In this document: positions 2,474 to 61,300 of the stretch, one piece after another
Layout of the letters: each line of letters starts with the position of its first letter
Numbering within the stretch: the first letter of the stretch is position 1
Assembly (NCBI GenBank): GCA_038961845.1
Contig: CP152408.1
Span: 2,170,001 to 2,234,000 of the forward strand
Source of the DNA: Xylophilus sp. GW821-FHT01B05
Lineage (GTDB): Bacteria; Pseudomonadota; Gammaproteobacteria; Burkholderiales; Burkholderiaceae_C
Direction: 5' to 3'
Length of the DNA: 64,000 bases
The notes under the pieces: generated by a model
The model's input: only the letters and a program-made list of their open reading frames with translations
Databases searched by the model: none
What the model was told of the DNA's origin: nothing
Made by a program: the position numbers and the translations under genes

Positions 2474-4716
2474 AACCGGCCGGCATCAGCCGCCGCGACG
2501 CCCTGCAGGCCGGCGGCCTCGCGCTGGCCTTCACCTGGTTCGGCACCGGCAAGGCTTTCGCCGCGATCAACGCGCGGCAGCAGCCGGCCGACGCCGCCGT
2601 CGCGCTCGCGGACGGCAACCCCGCATTCGCACCGAATGCGTTCGTTCGCATCGATACCGATGGCAGCGTGCGTCTCGTGATGCCGACGGTCGAGATGGGG
2701 CAGGCGATCTACACCGGTTCAGCGATGTTGCTGGCCGAGGAGCTGGACGTCGAACTCGACCAGGTGCGCGTGGAGCATTCGCCGCCGAACGAGGCGCTCT
2801 ACGGCATCCCTCTGCTGGGCGGCCAGATCACCGGCGGTTCGACCAGCACGCGTGCCACCTACGGGGTGCTGAGGGAGGCGGGCGCCGTGGCGCGCACGCT
2901 GCTGGTATCGGCCGCCGCAGCGCAATGGAAGGTCGATCCCGCGGAGTGCACCGTGGCGCGCGGCGTGGTGAGCCATGCGGCGTCCAAGCGGCAACTCGGC
3001 TTCGGCGCGCTCGCCGGTGCAGCCGCCAAGTTGCCGATGCCGGCCAAGGTGACGCTCAAGGAGCCGAAGGACTTCAGGCTGATCGGCCAGCCGCTGAGGC
3101 GCGTCGACTCCGCCGGCAAGGTCGACGGCACGACCCAGTTCGGCCTCGATGTGCGCGTGCCGGGCATGAAGGTGGCGACGGTCAGGGCCTGTCCCACCTT
3201 CGGCGGCGTGCTGGCCTCGGTGGACGACAAGGCGGCGCGTGCCATCCCCGGCGTGATCGACGTGCTGCGCATCAATGACGCGGTCGCCGTGGTGGGCGAG
3301 CATTTTTGGGCCGCCAAGCGCGGGCTCGAAGCATTGAAGATCGAGTGGACACCGGGGCAGAACGCCGAGCTCACCACGCAGAAGCTGCGTACGGCGCTGA
3401 GTGATGCGCTGGCCAAGGACAAGGCGATTGTCGGCAAGGACATCGGCAAGCGGCCCGAGGGCACGTTGGTGCAGGCGACCTACGACCTGCCGATGCTGGC
3501 GCACGCGACTATGGAGCCGCTCAACACCACGGTGCATGTGCGGCCCAACCAGTGCGAGATCTGGGTAGGCACCCAGGTGCCGACGCGCTGCGTGAGCGTG
3601 GCGGCCAAGATCACCGGCCTAGCCGAAGACAAGGTGGTGCTGCACAACCAGTATCTGGGCGGCGGCTTCGGCCGCCGGCTCGAGACCGATTCGGTGGAGC
3701 AGGCCGTGGCCTTCGCCAAACAGGTGCCTTATCCGCTCAAGGTGGTGTGGACGCGCGAGGAAGACATCCGCCACGACATCGTGCGCCCGATGTACCACGA
3801 CGACATCTCGGCCGTGGTCGACGGCGAGGGCCGGATCCTCTGGCTGGGCGACCGCATCGCGGGCGGCACGGTGCTGGGCCGCTGGGCGCCCCCGGCCATG
3901 GGCAAGGACGGCATGGACGGCGATCTGATCGAATGCGTCGCCGAGCCCTGCTACGACCTGCCGAACCTGAAGGTCGAGTGGGTGAGGCACGACATGCCGC
4001 CCGGCCTCAATGTCGGCTGGTGGCGCGGCGTGGGGCCGACGCACAACCTGTTCGTGCTGGAGAGTTTCATTGACGAGCTGGCGCAGCGTGCGAAGAAGGA
4101 TCCGGTGGCCTACCGGCGCGCCTTGCTCCAGAAGAATCCGCGCACGCTCGCCGTGCTCGACCTGGCGGCCAGCAAGATTGGCTGGGGGCAGGGCACGCTG
4201 CCGGCGCGCGTGGGACGCGGCGTGGCCGTGGGCGATCCCTTCGGCAGCCGGGTCTGCGCCATGGTCGAAGTGGAGGTCACGCCGCAGGGCGAGGTGCGCC
4301 TGCGGCGCGCGGTGGTCGCGCTCGACTGCGGCATCGCGGTCAATGCCAGCTCGATCGAGGCGCAGGTCCAGGGCGGTTTGCTGTTCGGGCTCAGTGCCGC
4401 GCTCTTCAGCGAGATCACCGTGCGCGAGGGCGCGATCGAGCAGAGCAACTTCCACGACTACCGAACGCTGCGCATCAATGAATCGCCACCGATCGAGGTG
4501 CACACGATCAAGAGCGGCGAAGCGCCCGGCGGGCTCGGCGAGGTCGGCACCGCGATTGCGGCGCCGGCGCTTGCGAACGCGATCTTCGCGGCGGCGGGCG
4601 TACGGCTGCGGTCGCTGCCGGTGAACCGCGCGCTGCTAGCGCAGGACAAGGAGGCGCTGAAGAAGAAGATCGCCCGTACCGGGTCCGGCGGGCAGGACGA
4701 AAGGAGCGCAGCATGA
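2470..4716 (+). CDS. Molybdenum hydroxylase large subunit, IorB-like
   Basis: A 748-residue molybdopterin-binding subunit, close to the usual size of isoquinoline 1-oxidoreductase beta subunits. The N-terminus has a twin-arginine signal ([15 protein letters not shown]), so the enzyme is probably exported folded to the periplasm. Repeated Mo-binding segments are visible, including GGGFGRR in the middle and [15 protein letters not shown] near the C-terminus, whose glutamate is the conserved catalytic base. It would hydroxylate an N-heteroaromatic ring or oxidise an aldehyde, passing electrons through the small subunit to the cytochrome c encoded next. Both flanking overlaps are four-base ATGA junctions, which argues for a stoichiometric complex. 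The precise substrate is unknown. Confidence 0.9.
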
Positions 4717-7938: not shown

Positions 7939-8742
7939 ATGTTGCTTTCATTCCAACGCGCGTTGTCCGTAGTGACGCTTGCTATCGCCGGCCTGGGCGC
8001 CACCGCGCAGGCGCAAGAGGTGTTGCGCGTAGCCGCTTCGCCGGTGCCGCACGCCGAGATTCTTGAATTCATCCGGCCGCAGTTGAAGGCGCAGGGCGTT
8101 GATCTGCAGGTCAAGGTGTTCAACGACTACGTGCAGCCAAACATCGCCGTGAGCGACAAGCAGTTGGACGCCAACTTCTTCCAGAACCGGCCGTACCTGG
8201 ACTCCTTCAACAAGGACCGCAAGACCGACATCGTCGAGGTGCCAAACAGCGACGTGCACATCGAGCCCTTCGGCGCCTACTCGCAGAAGATCAAGAAGAC
8301 CTCGGAGCTGCGCGACGGCGCCATCATCGTGATCCCGAGCGATCCCTCCAACTCGGGCCGCGCGCTGTCGCTGCTGGCCAAGCAGGGGCTGATCAAGCTC
8401 AAGGATTCGTCCAACATCAAGTCCACCGCACGCGACATCGTGGACAACCCAAAGAAGCTGGTGATCCGTGAGCTTGAATCGGCCCAACTGCCGCGCGCGC
8501 TGCCGGACGTGGACCTGGCGCTGATCAACACCAACTACGCGCTAGAGGCCAAGCTTGATCCGGCCAAGGACGCGCTCTTCATCGAAGACGGCCGCAATTC
8601 GCCCTATGCCAACTTCATCGCTTCGCGCAAGGACAACGTGAACTCGCCGGCCATCGCCAAGCTGGTGGCCGCGCTCCACACGGCAGAGGCCCGCAAGTTC
8701 ATCCAGGACAAGTACAAGGGCGCGGTGATCCCGGCGTTCTGA
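7939..8742 (+). CDS. MetQ/NlpA-family ABC substrate-binding protein
   Basis: A 267-residue periplasmic binding protein with a signal peptide ending near AQAQ. The body contains the family pattern (VAASPVPHAEILEF, QLDANFFQNRPYL, INTNYALEAKLDP) used for D/L-methionine and related ligands. Unlike MetQ of enterobacteria it has no lipobox cysteine, so it should be a soluble periplasmic protein. ATG 7939 is preceded by a GAGGGA site. No metN or metI permease genes are next to it, so the membrane partners must be elsewhere. Ligand is inferred from family only. Confidence 0.85.
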   Translation: MLLSFQRALSVVTLAIAGLGATAQAQEVLRVAASPVPHAEILEFIRPQLKAQGVDLQVKVFNDYVQPNIAVSDKQLDANFFQNRPYLDSFNKDRKTDIVEVPNSDVHIEPFGAYSQKIKKTSELRDGAIIVIPSDPSNSGRALSLLAKQGLIKLKDSSNIKSTARDIVDNPKKLVIRELESAQLPRALPDVDLALINTNYALEAKLDPAKDALFIEDGRNSPYANFIASRKDNVNSPAIAKLVAALHTAEARKFIQDKYKGAVIPAF

Positions 8743-13101: not shown

Positions 13102-14738
13102 GTAACTACTCAGCCCCCTGAGGGCAGAGGTGGTCGAAGCCTGGGGCCTACGTACAGCGGCAGGCCCGCCGAACGGTGCAGGGCGAGCGCAGGCAACCGA
13201 ACAGCATCGCCCCTACAGCACAGGCTGCCTGGTGTTCCCCGAGAAGACACTGATGAGGCAGTCAAAGAGGCAGGCGCGCTGCTTGCGCATAGTGGCCAGA
13301 TAGGAGCGCAGGGTAAAGAAGGTATCGGCCCCCTCCCGCGTGCGAAAGCAGCCCGAGACCTTCTGTCGGACCTTGGACATGCGCAGGGCCTGCTCGGCCA
13401 GGTTGTTGGTAAAAGGCACGTCCGCATCGGTCATGAAGCGCCAGACCTCGCGGCGGTGCACGCGCAGGCGCTTGAGCAGATTGAACGCCTTGCTCTGCTG
13501 GTGGCGGCCCTGTCTGTTGCGGGGCGCCCCCGAGGGCAAGACCTCCGGGTGCAGCCGCTCCCCGCGCTGCAGCAACTGTTCCCACTGCGCTTCGAACCAG
13601 GCCTGGCGCTCCAGCGGAAGTGGTGAGTCTGCTTGCGCCACCTCGCGCTGCGCCTGCAGCAGCAGCTCCATCATCTCGCGCGCCCAGCCATCCCAGATCC
13701 TCTCGCCCATCTGCTCGTGCACGAAGGTCAGCTCCCGCAGGTGGTGCGCATTGCACAGGCTGTGCGTGCAGTCCAGCCCCTTGTAGCTGGCCAGCCCGTC
13801 GTGCACCAGCGTGCCCCGCACGCCGGGCAGGATGCCCAGGGCTTCGAAGGCTGCGCTGCCACGCTTGGCATGCAGCCCCAGCCACGTCAGCGAGGCCGTG
13901 ACGGCGCAGTGCAACCAGGCCAGGGTGCCCTTGACCCGGATACCGGTCTCATCGGCGTGCACAACGGGGGCGCCTTGTACGGCCTGCCCGATGGCCGCTA
14001 CCGTGGGCGCCAGGGTCTGGGCCGCCTGGTGGCAGAAGGCCAGCACGCTGGCTTGGGACAGGGGCAGGCCAAAGGCGTCGCGCAGGAGCTCGCAGGTGCG
14101 CTGCAGGGGCACCAGGTGGTGCTGGTTCAAATGCACGGCCAGGGCCTTGGCCCGGGGGCCGTATTGCGTGGGAGCGCTGATGCCCTCGGGGAAGCTGCCT
14201 TGGTGCACGGCCCCGCAGCGGCAGGTGGAGCGGATCAGTTGGTGTTCGATGACCTGGGCGCGCAGCGCCGGGAGTTCGAAGACCTGGCGCTGGGCGATGA
14301 CCTCGTGCTGGGCCAGCAACTCCTGGCAGGCGTTGCAGCGGGGGGCACTCTGGTGGGTGATGACCTGGTCGACTTCGGCGCTCTGGCGCAGCGTGTGGCC
14401 GCCGTGGCCCTTCTGGCCGCCTAGAGGGCGCTGGCCGCTGGGGCGCAGGGACTTCGGGGCGGGTTTGGCCAGGCCATCGCTGGAGGGCGGCTTGCTGGAG
14501 TTGCGGCTGTTGAGGGCCAGCCGGGCTTCGAGCTCGGTGATGCGCGCTTGCATCACTGCGAGCTGGGCGGTGAGCGATTGCACCTGCCCCAGCAGCGGCC
14601 ACAGCATCCTGATCAGTTCGTCCTTCTGCGCGTGGCTCAGCGTGCTGAGATCGGGCAACGCTGGGAGGTCGGGCTGGCTCGGGTGGCTGGGCATTGCCGC
14701 TATTGTCTATTAGCGAATCCGGGGACCTGAGTAGTTAC
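13102..14738 (-). mobile_element. IS66-family insertion sequence, single-ORF type
   Basis: The element is bounded by 12-base perfect inverted repeats GTAACTACTCAG (13102-13113) and its complement (14727-14738). GTAA ends are typical of IS66. Total length is 1637 bases with one transposase gene and no tnpA/tnpB, as in the ISBst12 subgroup. The 8-base flanks (AAATTTTT left, AAAATATT right) agree at only six of eight places, so no intact target duplication is present. It lies between fecI and xthA. Confidence 0.88.
13213..14694 (-). CDS. IS66-family transposase (TnpC type)
   Basis: A 493-residue transposase. The N-terminal coiled-coil (SLTAQLAVMQARITELEARL) is followed by NSRNSSKPPSSDG, the zinc-finger-like CNACQ...CRCG region, and the DDE core with VVHADETGIRVKG and LVHDGLASYKGLDCTHSLCNAH. 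The C-terminus has FTNNLAEQALRMSKVRQKVSG. All are standard IS66 TnpC features and the reading frame is intact, so the element may still be able to move. It is transcribed towards fecI. Confidence 0.95.
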   Translation of the reverse strand: MPSHPSQPDLPALPDLSTLSHAQKDELIRMLWPLLGQVQSLTAQLAVMQARITELEARLALNSRNSSKPPSSDGLAKPAPKSLRPSGQRPLGGQKGHGGHTLRQSAEVDQVITHQSAPRCNACQELLAQHEVIAQRQVFELPALRAQVIEHQLIRSTCRCGAVHQGSFPEGISAPTQYGPRAKALAVHLNQHHLVPLQRTCELLRDAFGLPLSQASVLAFCHQAAQTLAPTVAAIGQAVQGAPVVHADETGIRVKGTLAWLHCAVTASLTWLGLHAKRGSAAFEALGILPGVRGTLVHDGLASYKGLDCTHSLCNAHHLRELTFVHEQMGERIWDGWAREMMELLLQAQREVAQADSPLPLERQAWFEAQWEQLLQRGERLHPEVLPSGAPRNRQGRHQQSKAFNLLKRLRVHRREVWRFMTDADVPFTNNLAEQALRMSKVRQKVSGCFRTREGADTFFTLRSYLATMRKQRACLFDCLISVFSGNTRQPVL

Positions 14739-14750
14739 AAAATATTGATG

Positions 14751-14810
14751 AAATATGCCTCTAGCCCAGGTGCAGACTGGGATGATAGCTATTAAATTGA
14801 TAGTTTCAGG
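14751..14810. repeat. Short intergenic repeat, copy 2
   Basis: The second copy of the element described at 8797-8854, starting TGCCTCTAGCCCAGGT with the TAGCTAT...GATAG...CAGG end. It begins 13 bases beyond the right end of the IS66-type element and its end overlaps the stop codon of xthA. Confidence 0.6.
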
Positions 14811-15579
14811 CTTCCAGCACCACTGGCGCGTGGTCGCTCGGCTGCGGGTTCTTGCGCGGCGCACGGTCCACGCGGCAGGCCGTCACCAGGGGCTTGAGCG
14901 CCTCGCTCACCAGGATGTGGTCAATGCGCAGGCCACGGTTCTTCTGGAAGCCCAGCATGCGGTAGTCCCACCACGAGAAGCTCTTCTCCGGCTGCTCGAA
15001 CATGCGGAAGGTATCGGTCAGCCCCAACTCCAGCAGCGCGCGGAAATGCGCGCGTTCCTCGCTGGTGTGGTGAATGGTCTCGCGCAGGCCTTCCGGGTCG
15101 AAGCTGTCGCGGTCCTCAGGGGCCACGTTGAAGTCGCCCAGCAACACCAGCCGTGGATGCGCCGCCAGCTCGGCCTTGACCTGCGCGTGCAGCGCGTCGA
15201 GCCACTGCATCTTGTAGGCAAACTTGTCGCTGCCCGGCGCCTGGCCGTTGACGAAATAGCCGTTGATGACGCGCAGCGGCCCCTCGGGCGTTTGCACCGT
15301 CGCTGCGATCACGCGCGACTGCGGGTCCTCGAAGCTGGCGATGTTGCGCACCACGTCGGTGAGCGGCGCCAGGCTCAGGATGGCCACGCCGTTATAGGTC
15401 TTCTGCCCAAACGCCGCGCTCTGGTAGCCGGCCGCTTGCAAGGCATCGAACGGAAACTTGTCGTCGGTCAGCTTGAGCTCCTGCAGGCACAGCACATCGA
15501 CCGGATTGGCGGCCAGCCAGTCCAGCACCTGCGGCAGGCGGACAGCGAGGGAGTTGACGTTCCAGGTTGCGATTTTCAT
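14806..15579 (-). CDS. xthA: Exodeoxyribonuclease III
   Basis: A 257-residue member of the endonuclease/exonuclease/phosphatase superfamily. Visible active-site motifs are TWNVNSL at the N-terminus, LCLQELKL with the metal-binding glutamate, NGYFVNGQAP, LLGDFNVAPEDRD and the C-terminal SDHAPVVLE with the catalytic Asp-His. It is the major AP endonuclease of base-excision repair. Length and motifs match bacterial XthA. It is a monocistronic housekeeping gene bordered by mobile DNA on both sides. Confidence 0.95.
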   Translation of the reverse strand: MKIATWNVNSLAVRLPQVLDWLAANPVDVLCLQELKLTDDKFPFDALQAAGYQSAAFGQKTYNGVAILSLAPLTDVVRNIASFEDPQSRVIAATVQTPEGPLRVINGYFVNGQAPGSDKFAYKMQWLDALHAQVKAELAAHPRLVLLGDFNVAPEDRDSFDPEGLRETIHHTSEERAHFRALLELGLTDTFRMFEQPEKSFSWWDYRMLGFQKNRGLRIDHILVSEALKPLVTACRVDRAPRKNPQPSDHAPVVLEA

Positions 15580-15661: not shown

Positions 15662-15693
15662 AATCAAGCGCGCTTGATTGACCCTCAAAGGGT
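15662..15693. repeat. Perfect palindrome and small hairpin at end of HTH remnant
   Basis: AATCAAGCGCGCTTGATT at 15662-15679 is an 18-base perfect palindrome. Directly beside it ACCCT-CAA-AGGGT (15681-15693) forms a five-pair hairpin covering the stop codon of the helix-turn-helix remnant. It may be a terminator for the minus-strand remnant or an old binding or recombination site. There is no U-run. Confidence 0.5.
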
Positions 15694-15857
15694 AACCGCG
15701 CCGCGAGCTTCTAAGTACTGCTGCAAGCTCACTTCGGTAATGCGGCTGGCGCGTTTCCCGACAGTGACGAGTTTCAAATTGCCATCCCGGACAAGCCTGT
15801 AAATCGTGGAGCGCGGCACATCAGTGCAACAAAGCCTATCGCGTCTTTAAGCGGCAT
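15685..15857 (-). pseudogene. Broken AlpA/excisionase-like helix-turn-helix gene
   Basis: On the minus strand the frame starting at ATG 15857 reads MPLKDAIGFVAL and is then shifted. The following frame continues as DVPRSTIYRLVRDGNL, KLVTVGKRASRITEVSL and QQYLEARGAVTL before TGA at 15685-15687. Together they form a typical roughly 60-residue excisionase/AlpA-type winged helix-turn-helix DNA-binding protein, interrupted by one frameshift near 15816. Such proteins are carried by integrative elements and prophage satellites, so this is probably a leftover of one. No integrase is near. Confidence 0.65.
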
Positions 15858-15927: not shown

Positions 15928-16734
15928 TCAACTCAAGCCGTCGCGTGCTTGGCGTCTGGTCGATTCTCGGAGTTCTGACGGCGTCGAACTTGTCCAACGC
16001 TTGAACGCGCGTCTGAAATTGGACGCGTCCGAAAAGCCGGTTTGCTCTGCGATCTGCTCGATCGAGAAGTCGGTATGCCGCAGGAAGTCGGTAGCCAGCT
16101 TGATCCGCAGTTCGTCGACCAGACGCTGGTATGAAAGCTCCTGGGCTTGCATCTGGCGGTAAAGCGTTCGCACCGTCAATCCCAAAACTGAGGCCACTTC
16201 CTCTACCGTCCGAAAGCGACCCGGGCGCAACATTAGCACCTCGACGATGCGGCGCTCCAGCAATGTGGGTTCCTCGCTGGACGGCAGCATCTGTTCGAAA
16301 ATCTGGCTGCATGCAATCGCAGTCACCGGATTTGCTTCGGGTAAGGCGATGTCGTCCTTTTCCGTGCTGATGTGCCATTCCATCAGGCGTTCACCGCCAC
16401 GCACGACGTACTTGGCGGGATAAAGCGCGACGAGAACCTCGACTTCGTCCTCTGACGCCCCGGTGCACGCGCTCCAGATCGAGCTCACCCTTTTGGCCAG
16501 CGAGAGTACGGCGCCGTCGCTGCGCCCATCACGTATGTGGCAGAAGATCAGCGTTTCGGAAGTGGCCTCTCCCGAACGGTAGGTGTTCTCGGGCGCGGCT
16601 TCATGGAAGACGACGCTGATCAGGTCGAGCGGCGAGAGGATGATTTCCCTGATCGCGCTGGTGAACTCGGCGGCCATCTTGGCCTTGACGCCAACTGGGA
16701 TTCCGGCCTTGCATTCGCAAACAATGACGGGCAT
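15928..16734 (-). CDS. Tautomerase-domain / AraC-family fusion regulator
   Basis: A 268-residue protein with an unusual architecture. Residues 1-56 resemble 4-oxalocrotonate tautomerase: MPVIVCECKAG strand with Pro2, a helix, then SPLDLISVVFHEA and YRSGE. Residues 60-116 repeat the same beta-alpha-beta pattern, including GRSD at 70-73 and VRGGE at 111-115, so the N-terminal half looks like a two-repeat tautomerase. Residues about 160-257 are an AraC/XylS DNA-binding domain with two helix-turn-helices (VEEVASVLGLTVRTLYRQMQ and IEQIAEQTGFSDASNFRRAF). The start at 16734 is preferred over 16818 because GGAG lies eight bases ahead and exposes Pro as residue 2, the tautomerase catalytic position. 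It is divergent from a hydrolase-Bug-flavin reductase operon, which it presumably controls in response to an enolisable acid. Confidence 0.8.
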   Translation of the reverse strand: MPVIVCECKAGIPVGVKAKMAAEFTSAIREIILSPLDLISVVFHEAAPENTYRSGEATSETLIFCHIRDGRSDGAVLSLAKRVSSIWSACTGASEDEVEVLVALYPAKYVVRGGERLMEWHISTEKDDIALPEANPVTAIACSQIFEQMLPSSEEPTLLERRIVEVLMLRPGRFRTVEEVASVLGLTVRTLYRQMQAQELSYQRLVDELRIKLATDFLRHTDFSIEQIAEQTGFSDASNFRRAFKRWTSSTPSELRESTRRQARDGLS

Positions 16735-16807
16735 TTTGTGTCTCCGTGGAAGGTGGGCTATTGAGGCCCCCAGTCTCTCGGAGCAAAGCCGTTGCGGATT
16801 GCAGCGC

Positions 16808-16835
16808 AGTGCCACCACTTGCTTGGAAGTGCCAC
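16808..16835 (-). promoter_or_regulatory. Direct-repeat operator candidate for the AraC-type regulator
   Basis: AGTGCCAC occurs at 16808-16815 and again at 16828-16835, 20 bases apart, in the region between the divergent regulator and hydrolase genes. Two same-facing half-sites about two helical turns apart are typical AraC-family sites. The pair is about 75 bases upstream of the regulator start, so autoregulation is likely. Confidence 0.45.
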
Positions 16836-17045
16836 GAATGGGTTTCTGACAGATACGGGTTGCGTCTGTGCCAATGACTGTGTCGGAGGCGCCGCGTTTG
16901 GAGCCTCGTGTACTTGAAACCTTCGTGGCCGCACGGTCATGTCCGTGCCGATGCAGTGCTCCGCGTATGCGCTCAGCGCTTCACCGATTCCATGGAGGAA
17001 ATCCTGGTTGACGCAAAGTGAGGGATGACATAGCCTTCGTTTGTT

Positions 17046-17057
17046 AAACGATCGTTT
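17046..17057. promoter_or_regulatory. AAACGATCGTTT palindrome
   Basis: A perfect 12-base palindrome in the 440-base divergent region, about 118 bases upstream of the hydrolase start. Could be an operator. The remainder of 16735-17174 contains no gene that I can support. Confidence 0.3.
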
Positions 17058-17174
17058 TGTGGCGTAGGCGATACATGCACACAGGCTCGGAGCTGACGCA
17101 GCTGACCAAGCCCCAACGAATGACTGTTCAGCCACAGCACCTTGCCCTTCTTGGCCTGTGCACGGAGACAAAAC

Positions 17175-18467
17175 TTGGCACAAGTTCGCAGAACACTCCT
17201 CGGGCCAACCGCAACACTGGCAACCTTGCCGGCTGCGGCTTTCAGCGTGCCACCAGAAAAAACCACCGTACTGAAGGCGGGCGCCGATTCCGTGCTGGCC
17301 CGTGCCGTGGCATCCGGCGACACAGCCGGCGTAGCTGCTGCGGTGATTACTCGCGATCAGACCCTCTACGTCGGAGCGCAGGGAGTGCACACGCTCGGCG
17401 CCACCGCCGCAATGGACCTGGACACGGTGATGCTCATCGCCTCCATGACCAAGCCGATCACGAGCGCCGCAGCCATGCAACTGGTCGAGCAGGGCAGGTT
17501 GAGCTTGGACGATCCAGCTGCCGCAGTTGTCCCCGAGCTGGGCGCTCTCAAGGTCCTGCAGGGCTGGGACGCGAATGGTGTGCCCCTGCTGCGTGATGCC
17601 AAGGGGCAGCTCACTCTGCGGCATCTGCTCACCCACACGTCCGGGTTCGCCTATGAGATATGGAATGCGAACCTTGGGCGCTTCTGCCGAACACAGAACA
17701 TCCCCGGCGTGCTGACGGGACAGAAAGCGGCGCTGCGCGTGCCTCTGTGCTTTGACCCCGGCACGCGCTGGGAATATGGCTTAGGCATCGATTGGGTGGG
17801 CCAGCTTGTCGAGGCCGCCAGCGGCCTGAGCTTGGGTGAATACTTCCAACGCAGCATCACAGGTCCGCTGGGCATGGACAGCACGGCGTTCAAGATCAGC
17901 GCGGCCATGCGCACTCGACTTGCAGGCATGCACTTGCGCGGCGATGACGGAAAACTGTCGGTGATCGATCTCGGCAAAGTGCAAGATCCCGAGTTCGAAT
18001 CGGGCGGCGCGGGCCTGTACTCCACAGCCAACGATTACCTGAAGTTCATGCGCATGATCCTCAATGGGGGGCAGGGCAATGGCAACCAAATCCTGCAGCC
18101 GGAGACGGTGGCCCTGATGTCGCGCAATGCCATGGGTGCGCTTCGCGTGAGGAAGCTGCCAACGCAGATCCCCTTTTTCTCGCGCGACGTGGAATTTTTC
18201 CCTGGCGTGCCCACCACCTGGAGCCTGGGCTTCATGGTCAACGAGGGCGCGGCGCCCACCGGCCGCAGCCCCGGCAGCCTGGGGTGGGCGGGACTGGTCA
18301 ACACGTACTTCTGGATCGACCCCAGTCTGAGCATCGCAGGCCTGGCCATGACGCAGGCTCTGCCGTTCGCGGACCCGAGAACCCTTGACCTGTTCTACGA
18401 TTTTGAAAAGAGCGTCTACGCCTCGCTGAACTGCAGCCTTGAAGGGAGGGTCACCGCCTCAGATTGA
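17175..18467 (+). CDS. Serine hydrolase, class C beta-lactamase/esterase-like
   Basis: A 430-residue protein that starts at TTG 17175, chosen because it follows the leader CACGGAGACA by four bases, just as the two neighbouring genes do; this gives a signal-like N-terminus (TLATLPAAAFS). The nucleophile motif SMTK is at about residues 90-93, the tyrosine motif YGL at 201-203 and HTSGF lies between. This is the penicillin-binding/EstB-type beta-lactamase fold, most often an esterase in catabolic loci. It precedes a Bug protein and flavin reductase on the same strand and is divergent from the tautomerase-AraC regulator. It may hydrolyse an ester or lactone substrate of the pathway. Confidence 0.85.
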   Translation: MAQVRRTLLGPTATLATLPAAAFSVPPEKTTVLKAGADSVLARAVASGDTAGVAAAVITRDQTLYVGAQGVHTLGATAAMDLDTVMLIASMTKPITSAAAMQLVEQGRLSLDDPAAAVVPELGALKVLQGWDANGVPLLRDAKGQLTLRHLLTHTSGFAYEIWNANLGRFCRTQNIPGVLTGQKAALRVPLCFDPGTRWEYGLGIDWVGQLVEAASGLSLGEYFQRSITGPLGMDSTAFKISAAMRTRLAGMHLRGDDGKLSVIDLGKVQDPEFESGGAGLYSTANDYLKFMRMILNGGQGNGNQILQPETVALMSRNAMGALRVRKLPTQIPFFSRDVEFFPGVPTTWSLGFMVNEGAAPTGRSPGSLGWAGLVNTYFWIDPSLSIAGLAMTQALPFADPRTLDLFYDFEKSVYASLNCSLEGRVTASD

Positions 18468-18538: not shown

Positions 18539-19531
18539 ATGAAAACACCGATCCGCAGACTCTTTGAGACCGCCCTTGTTGCGGTCGCGCTTTGTGGTGC
18601 CGCGGCCACCGCCAACGCGCAGCCCTATCCGAACAAGCCCATCCTGATCAAGGTTGCCTATCCTGCCGGGTTTGGCGTCGACGCCTCAGTGCGGCCATCC
18701 GTACCCGTGCTGCAGCGCGCCCTTGGACAGTCTCTTCTGGTTGACAACATGCCTGGCGCGAACGGCTCCATCGCGGCGATGAACGTGCTGAACGCGTCGC
18801 CCGACGGATACACCTTGCTCGCAACCGCCGGTCCGGACTTCGTTGTGGCGCCGCTCACGGTCGCTTCGGCCAAGTACACGTTCGACAGCTTCAAGCTCAT
18901 TGGTTCGTTCGGGATTGCGGACATGGTCCTCGTCAGCCATCCCGACCGGCCTTTCAACACCCTCAACGCACTCGTCGAACAGTTGCAAAAGCCTGACGCG
19001 AAGGAGCTTTCCATCGCCCATTGGGGTCAAGGCACGCTCGCTCATCTCGCGGCCGCTGAATTCCAGGGGCGTGTCGGCGCCAAGTTGCTGGAGGTGCCCT
19101 ACAAAGGCATCGCTCCAATTGCCACGGCCGTCGGCGGCGGAGAGGTGGACCTCGCCTTTGTCCCGCTTGCGGGACCAGTTCTGGGAATGATTCAGACCGG
19201 GCGCATCAAGGCCATCGCCATCGCGAGCCCCAAGCGGCATCCGCTCCTGCCGAACTTGGCGACGCTGAGCGAGGACGATCGGTTCAAGAACTTCGAGTTC
19301 GGCATCTGGACCGGCCTGTTCACGCCCGCACGCACACCCGATTCCGTCGCTGCGCGCCTGAGCACGGCCTTTCGAGAATGGAATGACAGTCCGGAATTCC
19401 TGGCGCTCGCAACCGCGCAGGGTTTGCGCAAGCTGGACTCCATGACCCCCCCGCAGGCCGCGACCTTCTTGCGTGCAGAGAACGAAAAGTTCATCAATAT
19501 CGCCAAGACGCTTCATTTGGTGGCGCAATAG
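18539..19531 (+). CDS. Bug-family tripartite tricarboxylate transporter substrate-binding protein
   Basis: A 330-residue periplasmic binding protein with signal peptide ending ANAQ. Typical Bug/TctC landmarks follow: YPNKPILIKVAYPAGFG, QSLLVDNMPGANGSIAA, SPDGYTLLATAG and LEVPYKGIAPI. The CACGGAGACA leader sits three bases ahead of ATG 18539. No tctA or tctB membrane genes are present, so it either shares a remote permease or acts as a solute sensor. Its placement between hydrolase and flavin reductase suggests capture of the pathway's acid substrate. Confidence 0.93.
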   Translation: MKTPIRRLFETALVAVALCGAAATANAQPYPNKPILIKVAYPAGFGVDASVRPSVPVLQRALGQSLLVDNMPGANGSIAAMNVLNASPDGYTLLATAGPDFVVAPLTVASAKYTFDSFKLIGSFGIADMVLVSHPDRPFNTLNALVEQLQKPDAKELSIAHWGQGTLAHLAAAEFQGRVGAKLLEVPYKGIAPIATAVGGGEVDLAFVPLAGPVLGMIQTGRIKAIAIASPKRHPLLPNLATLSEDDRFKNFEFGIWTGLFTPARTPDSVAARLSTAFREWNDSPEFLALATAQGLRKLDSMTPPQAATFLRAENEKFINIAKTLHLVAQ

Positions 19532-19554: not shown

Positions 19555-20211
19555 ATGACCGTTCGAGACTTTCACTACTACGAGCCCGCCAAGGGTCACG
19601 GGCTGAGCCACAACCCGCTCAATGCGCTGGTAGCGCCGCGGCCTATCGGCTGGATCTCGTCACGCGACGCCCAGGGGCGGGTCAATCTCGCACCCTACAG
19701 TTTCTTCAATGCGTTCAACTACGATCCACCGATCATCGGATTTTCTTCGATCGCCTGGAAAGATAGCGTTCAGAACGCATCGGAAACGGGCGAGTTCACC
19801 TGGAACCTGGTCACGCGAGAACTCGGCGATCAGATGAATCAGACCTCGGCACCGCTTCCGCATGGAGAGGACGAATTCCCCTTCGCCGGCCTCACAGCGG
19901 TGGCGGGCCGCATGGTCAACGTCCCGAGGGTGGGCGAAAGCCGCGCAGCCATGGAATGCAAGGTGATCGACATCGTGCAATTCCGAAACACCGCGGGCGA
20001 AAAGGTAGGTGGCTGGCTGGTGCTGGGCGAAGTGGTGGGCGTGTACATAGACATGGCACTTCTGAAAGACGGCGTCTATCAGACGGCAGAGGCGTATCCG
20101 ATCATGCGTTCCGGGGGGCTGAATGACTATGTTCAGGTTTCGCCAGAGAATGTTTTCCAGATCGCGCGGCTCGCGGGCGCCAGCGGCCCGTCGTCGCATG
20201 GCAAGGGATAG
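19555..20211 (+). CDS. Flavin reductase-like domain protein
   Basis: A 218-residue FMN-binding split-barrel protein of the DIM6/NTAB family. Characteristic segments are NALVAPRPIGWISSRDAQGRVNLAPYSFFNAFNYDPP shortened here to its core PRPIGWISSRD and NLAPYSFFNAF, and later TWNLVTRELGDQMN. Members reduce free flavin for two-component monooxygenases or act on small substrates themselves. It follows the Bug gene by 23 bases and closes the operon opposite the tautomerase-AraC regulator. No partner monooxygenase is in the same operon. Confidence 0.85.
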   Translation: MTVRDFHYYEPAKGHGLSHNPLNALVAPRPIGWISSRDAQGRVNLAPYSFFNAFNYDPPIIGFSSIAWKDSVQNASETGEFTWNLVTRELGDQMNQTSAPLPHGEDEFPFAGLTAVAGRMVNVPRVGESRAAMECKVIDIVQFRNTAGEKVGGWLVLGEVVGVYIDMALLKDGVYQTAEAYPIMRSGGLNDYVQVSPENVFQIARLAGASGPSSHGKG

Positions 20212-61138: not shown

Positions 61139-61300
61139 GAAACGCCCCCAGGCTACGCGCTTCGCGTCTTCGCCAACCCCCTTGCAGGGGGCAACACCAG
61201 TGGCCCGGCAAAGCCGGTTCCACCGTGTTCCCGGCATGGCCCGCTCCGCGGCCTTTGGCACCGTTGTGTTGTGTGTCCCGCGGGCGGCGCGGGCGCCATG
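61139..61300. repeat. Hairpin-rich intergenic element
   Basis: Three perfect short hairpins follow one another: ACGCG-CTT-CGCGT (61155-61167), CCCCC-TTGCA-GGGGG (61177-61191) and CCGGC-AAA-GCCGG (61205-61217). The sequence style resembles repeated intergenic elements I know from Acidovorax-like genomes. It separates the SDR gene from the GntR gene; no ORF is credible. Confidence 0.5.

Follow-up and report, generated by a model that had tools for sequence, protein, structure and literature searches.

A chimeric gene joining a two-repeat tautomerase to the tail of an AraC-family regulator in Xylophilus sp. GW821-FHT01B05

The window, a stretch of 64,000 nucleotides from the genome of Xylophilus sp. 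GW821-FHT01B05 (contig CP152408.1, positions 2,170,001 to 2,234,000), carries on its minus strand a gene of 268 aa (15928..16734, stop at 15928-15930) in which most of a tautomerase is followed by the DNA-binding part of an AraC-family regulator. The chimera forms one intact reading frame, both parent families can be named, the joint is located to within about one base, and the upstream DNA and ribosome site are common to the chimera and the stand-alone enzyme. We consider it likely that this is a natural chimeric gene, which arose once through illegitimate joining within DNA of horizontal origin and in which the AraC tails are passengers. A recombination scar expressed from the enzyme promoter is a more likely description than a newborn regulator.

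Architecture of the chimeric gene

Residues 1-117 (16384..16734, minus strand) form a two-repeat tautomerase domain with Pro at position 2, on which profile searches and predicted structure agree; this part corresponds to an enzyme of normally 123 residues, of which the usual six C-terminal residues and the stop are missing. The AraC-derived tail (residues 118-268; 15928..16383, minus strand) matches residues ~205-350 of the PF12625-type regulator P0007 and contains an HTH_18 AraC DNA-binding domain at residues 181-257. The joint (16383..16384, minus strand) lies between codon 117 (Leu) and codon 118 (Met), and leaves both domains nearly whole. The window's open reading frames give the chimera as a single intact minus-strand frame, and no stops or frameshifts have accumulated in it.

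An earlier note, made from the sequence alone, had proposed a tandem tautomerase topology followed by an AraC domain, and both readings held. Predicted structure and a fold search, whose rows cover mostly residues 2-106, place two tandem beta-alpha-beta units in the N-terminal part, and PF01361 matches the chimera with 29.2 bits (curated cut-off 22); no NCBIfam tautomerase model came up to its own cut-off. HTH_18 and HTH_AraC match with 71.9 and 46.6 bits, both over their cut-offs, and the profile search found no match to the PF12625 sensor domain. The mutual arrangement of the domains cannot be read from the combined model, a monomer of middling quality (mean pLDDT 69, pTM 0.43; residues 120-134 and 151-153 below 50) whose underlying alignment included full-length AraC rows with N-termini foreign to the tautomerase; alignment A3, which included short AraC pieces, misplaced them and was not used for structure.

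Origin of the tautomerase half

Searches with the first half found 39 proteins: 27 of 123 residues (counting P0090 despite its garbled inner stretch), two with the same core behind an extended start, two shortened and eight rearranged. None of the 39 lists an AraC domain. Among full-length copies P0061 comes nearest, with 96% identity over the common part, and stand-alone two-repeat tautomerases of Variovorax and Cupriavidus catabolic clusters, such as those of L013 and P0061, share 96-97% identity with the chimera over that part. These enzymes resemble the chimera in ribosome site and upstream DNA, and in 5/12 loci also in their divergent neighbours; unlike it, they end at 123 residues, usually with PEAPRV, and have no DNA-binding domain.

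In the genome collection the tautomerase is present in 13 loci (L013-L025), one of which (L015) has broken copies only, and it is fused to AraC in none of them. DNA of 12 of these loci (L013-L024) aligns to the window, and every alignment starts at 16384, save that of L020, which starts at 16385. Past the joint the relatives continue with PEAPRV or a near variant and a stop, and the window continues with MEWH. The ribosome-binding GGAG (16742..16745, minus strand) is also found in stand-alone copies of the enzyme gene (10/10 relatives printed), and Pro2 is conserved in all 27 rows of alignment A5. Both findings agree with the note's proposal that Pro2 is free after predicted removal of Met, and the mature chimera would begin with an N-terminal proline. 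The chimera and the hydrolase gene diverge from an intergenic region (16735..17141) that is ~95% identical to L013 up to 16991, matches in other loci being shorter or weaker; a promoter and terminator consensus scan found no site.

No second tautomerase of this kind was found in the organism's own genome. Among the 399 family genomes searched, the tautomerase is present in the source genome and absent from the other 398.

Origin of the AraC half

The search with the AraC half found 54 relatives; PF12625 is listed for 52 of them and a tautomerase domain for none. Full-length members have ~350 residues. The closest, P0007, is 62% identical to chimera residues 118-268 and aligns with the tail from its residue 203, so that the joint corresponds to P0007 residues 204/205. 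The AraC half is thus the tail of an unrelated ~350-residue PF12625-type regulator that has lost its sensor domain and has a nearly whole tautomerase in its place. The source genome holds no close full-length parent, its other AraC regulators reaching at most 28% identity over the length of P0007, and no close DNA relatives of the AraC half were found among plasmids and phages. L019 was considered as an adjacent or fused precursor (match residues 1-261) and rejected, as its AraC gene is a separate, 30%-identical one upstream of the tautomerase copy.

Against a chance break it can be said that 117 of the 123 enzyme residues are kept and that the PF12625 match of P0007 (residues 35-204) ends at the joint position. 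The joint is neater than a random break, which argues mildly for something more than chance; neat cases are, however, also those that are noticed.

Genomic surroundings

The joint sits in DNA without counterpart in relatives, beside a core exonuclease gene and a broken HTH_17 gene. The exonuclease gene (14806..15579, minus strand; Pfam Exo_endo_phos), which we take to be xthA, occurs in all seven genus genomes, with 82-89% identity in the six relatives. In five relatives the DNA flanking this gene does not match the window DNA that adjoins it here, the sole other match being 89 bases near window position 61143 in one of them. Directly downstream of the chimera lies an AlpA-like gene remnant (15685..15846, minus strand), preceded by an in-frame stop, which matches HTH_17 with 28.6 bits (cut-off 27) and Phage_AlpA with 14 (under the cut-off of 21), and which is perhaps the edge of a mobile element. 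Beyond the exonuclease gene, 13213-14694 holds a 493-residue transposase-like frame, IS66-like by eye.

On the other side, divergent from the chimera, are genes on the plus strand for a serine hydrolase (17142..18467; Pfam Beta-lactamase PF00144), a Bug/TctC binding protein (18539..19531) and a flavin reductase-like protein (19555..20211), as the earlier note had described. Wherever they can be aligned, these genes and the upstream DNA are ~85-95% identical to loci of Variovorax and Cupriavidus. From this, from the flanks of the exonuclease gene and from the absence of the tautomerase in the 398 other family genomes searched, we infer that the stretch carrying the chimera was acquired horizontally. 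The note also saw in them a natural source of inducer. The divergent neighbours are real; however, they seem to have arrived with the enzyme, because the stand-alone tautomerase is already divergent from a Bug gene in 5 of the 12 DNA-alignable loci (L015, L016, L018, L023 and L024), with the hydrolase between the two in at least L016 and L018, and a neighbourhood that accompanied the stand-alone enzyme is weak evidence for a regulator's inducer. Further along, 22251-42327 encodes a catabolic set, partly syntenic with Variovorax L013, of a GMC oxidoreductase, an aldehyde dehydrogenase, a class II aldolase, an amidohydrolase, a 2-hydroxyacid dehydrogenase, three Bug proteins, an SDR, a thiolase-like protein, a CoA-transferase, an AMP-ligase and a TetR regulator.

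Search for further fusions and rearrangements

Neither half yielded a second tautomerase-AraC fusion in 5.77 billion proteins, and there was none among 60 relatives or in the genome contigs collection. The full-query and AraC protein searches admit proteins of ~147-469 residues that share 5-residue words, and the tautomerase search those of ~68-215 residues. No second fusion was found in 399 family genomes (searched with the tautomerase part), in 399 order genomes (AraC part at E 1e-25; tautomerase profile at 1e-10), in 369 class genomes (tautomerase profile at 1e-6), or in plasmids, phages and viral contigs. Five other order genomes gave a match to the tautomerase profile, but in open frames of 128-185 residues, which are too short for the fusion. 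Within these searches the fusion appears confined to one genome; the genome sets are samples, and a distant, independent tautomerase-AraC fusion would escape them. We rejected an established family, or membership in a regulator class, as a description of the fusion, since no second case was found with either half. Searches of PMC pairing tautomerase with AraC gave no report of a fusion of this kind.

The eight rearranged copies among the 39 relatives (P0002, P0006, P0070, P0078, P0088, P0091, P0094 and P0095) show internal (tandem) duplications, deletions, frame changes and joints to other sequence, although some lie on short contigs and may be errors. In P0006 the tautomerase is joined to the N-terminus of a Bug protein (TctC 23.5 bits, below the cut-off of 27), and in Variovorax Root411 (L015) both tautomerase copies are broken (3938-4336 and 8001-8457 of that locus). 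An accidental fusion is easy to believe because this gene is often broken and rejoined.

Stand-alone copies also occur in pairs within one contig (L013, L015, L017/L018, L019 and L022/L023); in four of the five pairs, 523-595 bases, upstream DNA among them, are 95-98% identical between the copies, which looks like duplication of a promoter-plus-gene cassette for use in different modules.

Comparison with known systems

The chimera is ~24% identical to Cg10062, cis-CaaD and the linker protein Ps01740 (5uif). With the residue list for the cis-CaaD/Cg10062 subgroup given in PMC5818174, Arg-70 and Arg-73 fall on R68 and R71 of the chimera, and His-28, Tyr-103 and Glu-114 on I28, L101 and R112. The same paper describes most members of the superfamily as consisting of one unit or two, and mentions a limited number of NRPS that also carry the motif as an appendage; in indigoidine synthetase a tautomerase unit is joined to another protein, as here, the partner being an NRPS. 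It adds a possible regulatory role for some members that lack Pro-1, whereas the chimera has this residue; the words 'transcription', 'DNA-binding' and 'helix-turn' are absent from its main text. According to PMC11641302, the C-terminus lies near the active site opening in 4-OT, MSAD and MIF but away from it in cis-CaaD and CHMI; what the changed C-terminus does in the chimera could therefore go either way. On the other side of the joint, PF12625-type regulators such as P0007 and P0010 have HTH_18 above cut-off, as does the chimera, in which their N-terminal sensor is gone; the solved AraC-family chains 5chh and VirS (8rcx) match its tail.

Selection and alternative explanations

Up to residue 117, 33 positions are invariant in 26 relatives and 55 are conserved in 24 or more of these, and the chimera retains every one; they include Pro2, R68 and R71, which correspond to Pro-1, Arg-70 and Arg-73 of cis-CaaD. 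The AraC half has a branch of 0.289 (0.276 for P0007) and deviates at three of 32 conserved columns, one being an end gap, as compared with 0-6 deviations in 16 relatives; it does not seem to have decayed faster than P0007. These are the signs of an intact and young gene, not of regulation as such. That neither half shows decay speaks against the reading of the tails as passengers.

Under the explanation that we favour, the joint would have fallen among the final codons of a tautomerase gene and, within an AraC-family gene whose own origin was probably horizontal, at the end of the sensor domain. The chimera would be expressed from the enzyme's own promoter as a trimeric tautomerase core, possibly still active, from which the AraC tails hang as passengers that would have no selected regulatory role yet.

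An overlapping explanation, which we hold with less confidence and regard as possible, is that the chimera is still mainly an enzyme and substitutes for a lost stand-alone tautomerase, the AraC tail being inert. It is the only copy in the genome and keeps the family-invariant positions. In a set of nine sequences, the window copy alone shows two nonsynonymous and three synonymous changes, the neutral nonsynonymous share being 0.745; the test is not significant (P = 0.11), as the changes are too few to show selection. The pathway may also be incomplete: BKACE, encoded close to the enzyme gene in L013, L017 and L024, had no match in this genome (in a search without positive control), and the MFS and SDR genes that adjoin the enzyme in L018 do not adjoin the chimera in its local neighbourhood.

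It is unlikely, in our judgement, that the gene is already a working newborn regulator, in which the tautomerase pocket would bind an enol or keto acid from the neighbouring catabolic genes and alter DNA binding by the AraC part, perhaps at the divergent hydrolase promoter. The domains are joined close to their borders, Pro2, the Arg pair R68/R71 and the invariant residues are in place, and the AraC half is without decay. Seven of the 13 other loci also have an AraC gene close to the tautomerase, and that of L013, the one such gene searched for, has no close ortholog here (best 31%). Against these points, the fusion is known from one genome only; an AraC half from an unrelated regulator need not find its operator near the chimera's promoter; and with PF12625 removed, a trimeric core would not be obviously suited to a regulator built for another sensor. 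The idea of the earlier note that the tautomerase is the evolved sensor of a regulator is not sustained, given the lack of fusion in all 13 other loci and the unrelated, PF12625-type source of the AraC half. An assembly or sequencing artefact joining two unrelated stretches, which a single genome might suggest, is very improbable, as the genome assembles into one contig of 5.83 Mb with an estimated completeness of 100%, and the frame is preserved across the joint.

Significance

Should the regulator work, against our expectation, this would be a transcription factor caught at birth, its AraC sensor swapped for a catalytic tautomerase that may read, and perhaps convert, its own enol or keto-acid ligand: a single recombination event within a catabolic cluster would have created a new sensor-regulator pair whose parent families are both identified and whose joint is located almost to the base. 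If it is not a regulator, the recombination scar is still a well-defined case of a chimeric gene being formed, and the enzyme family concerned is one with repeated rearrangements of its gene.
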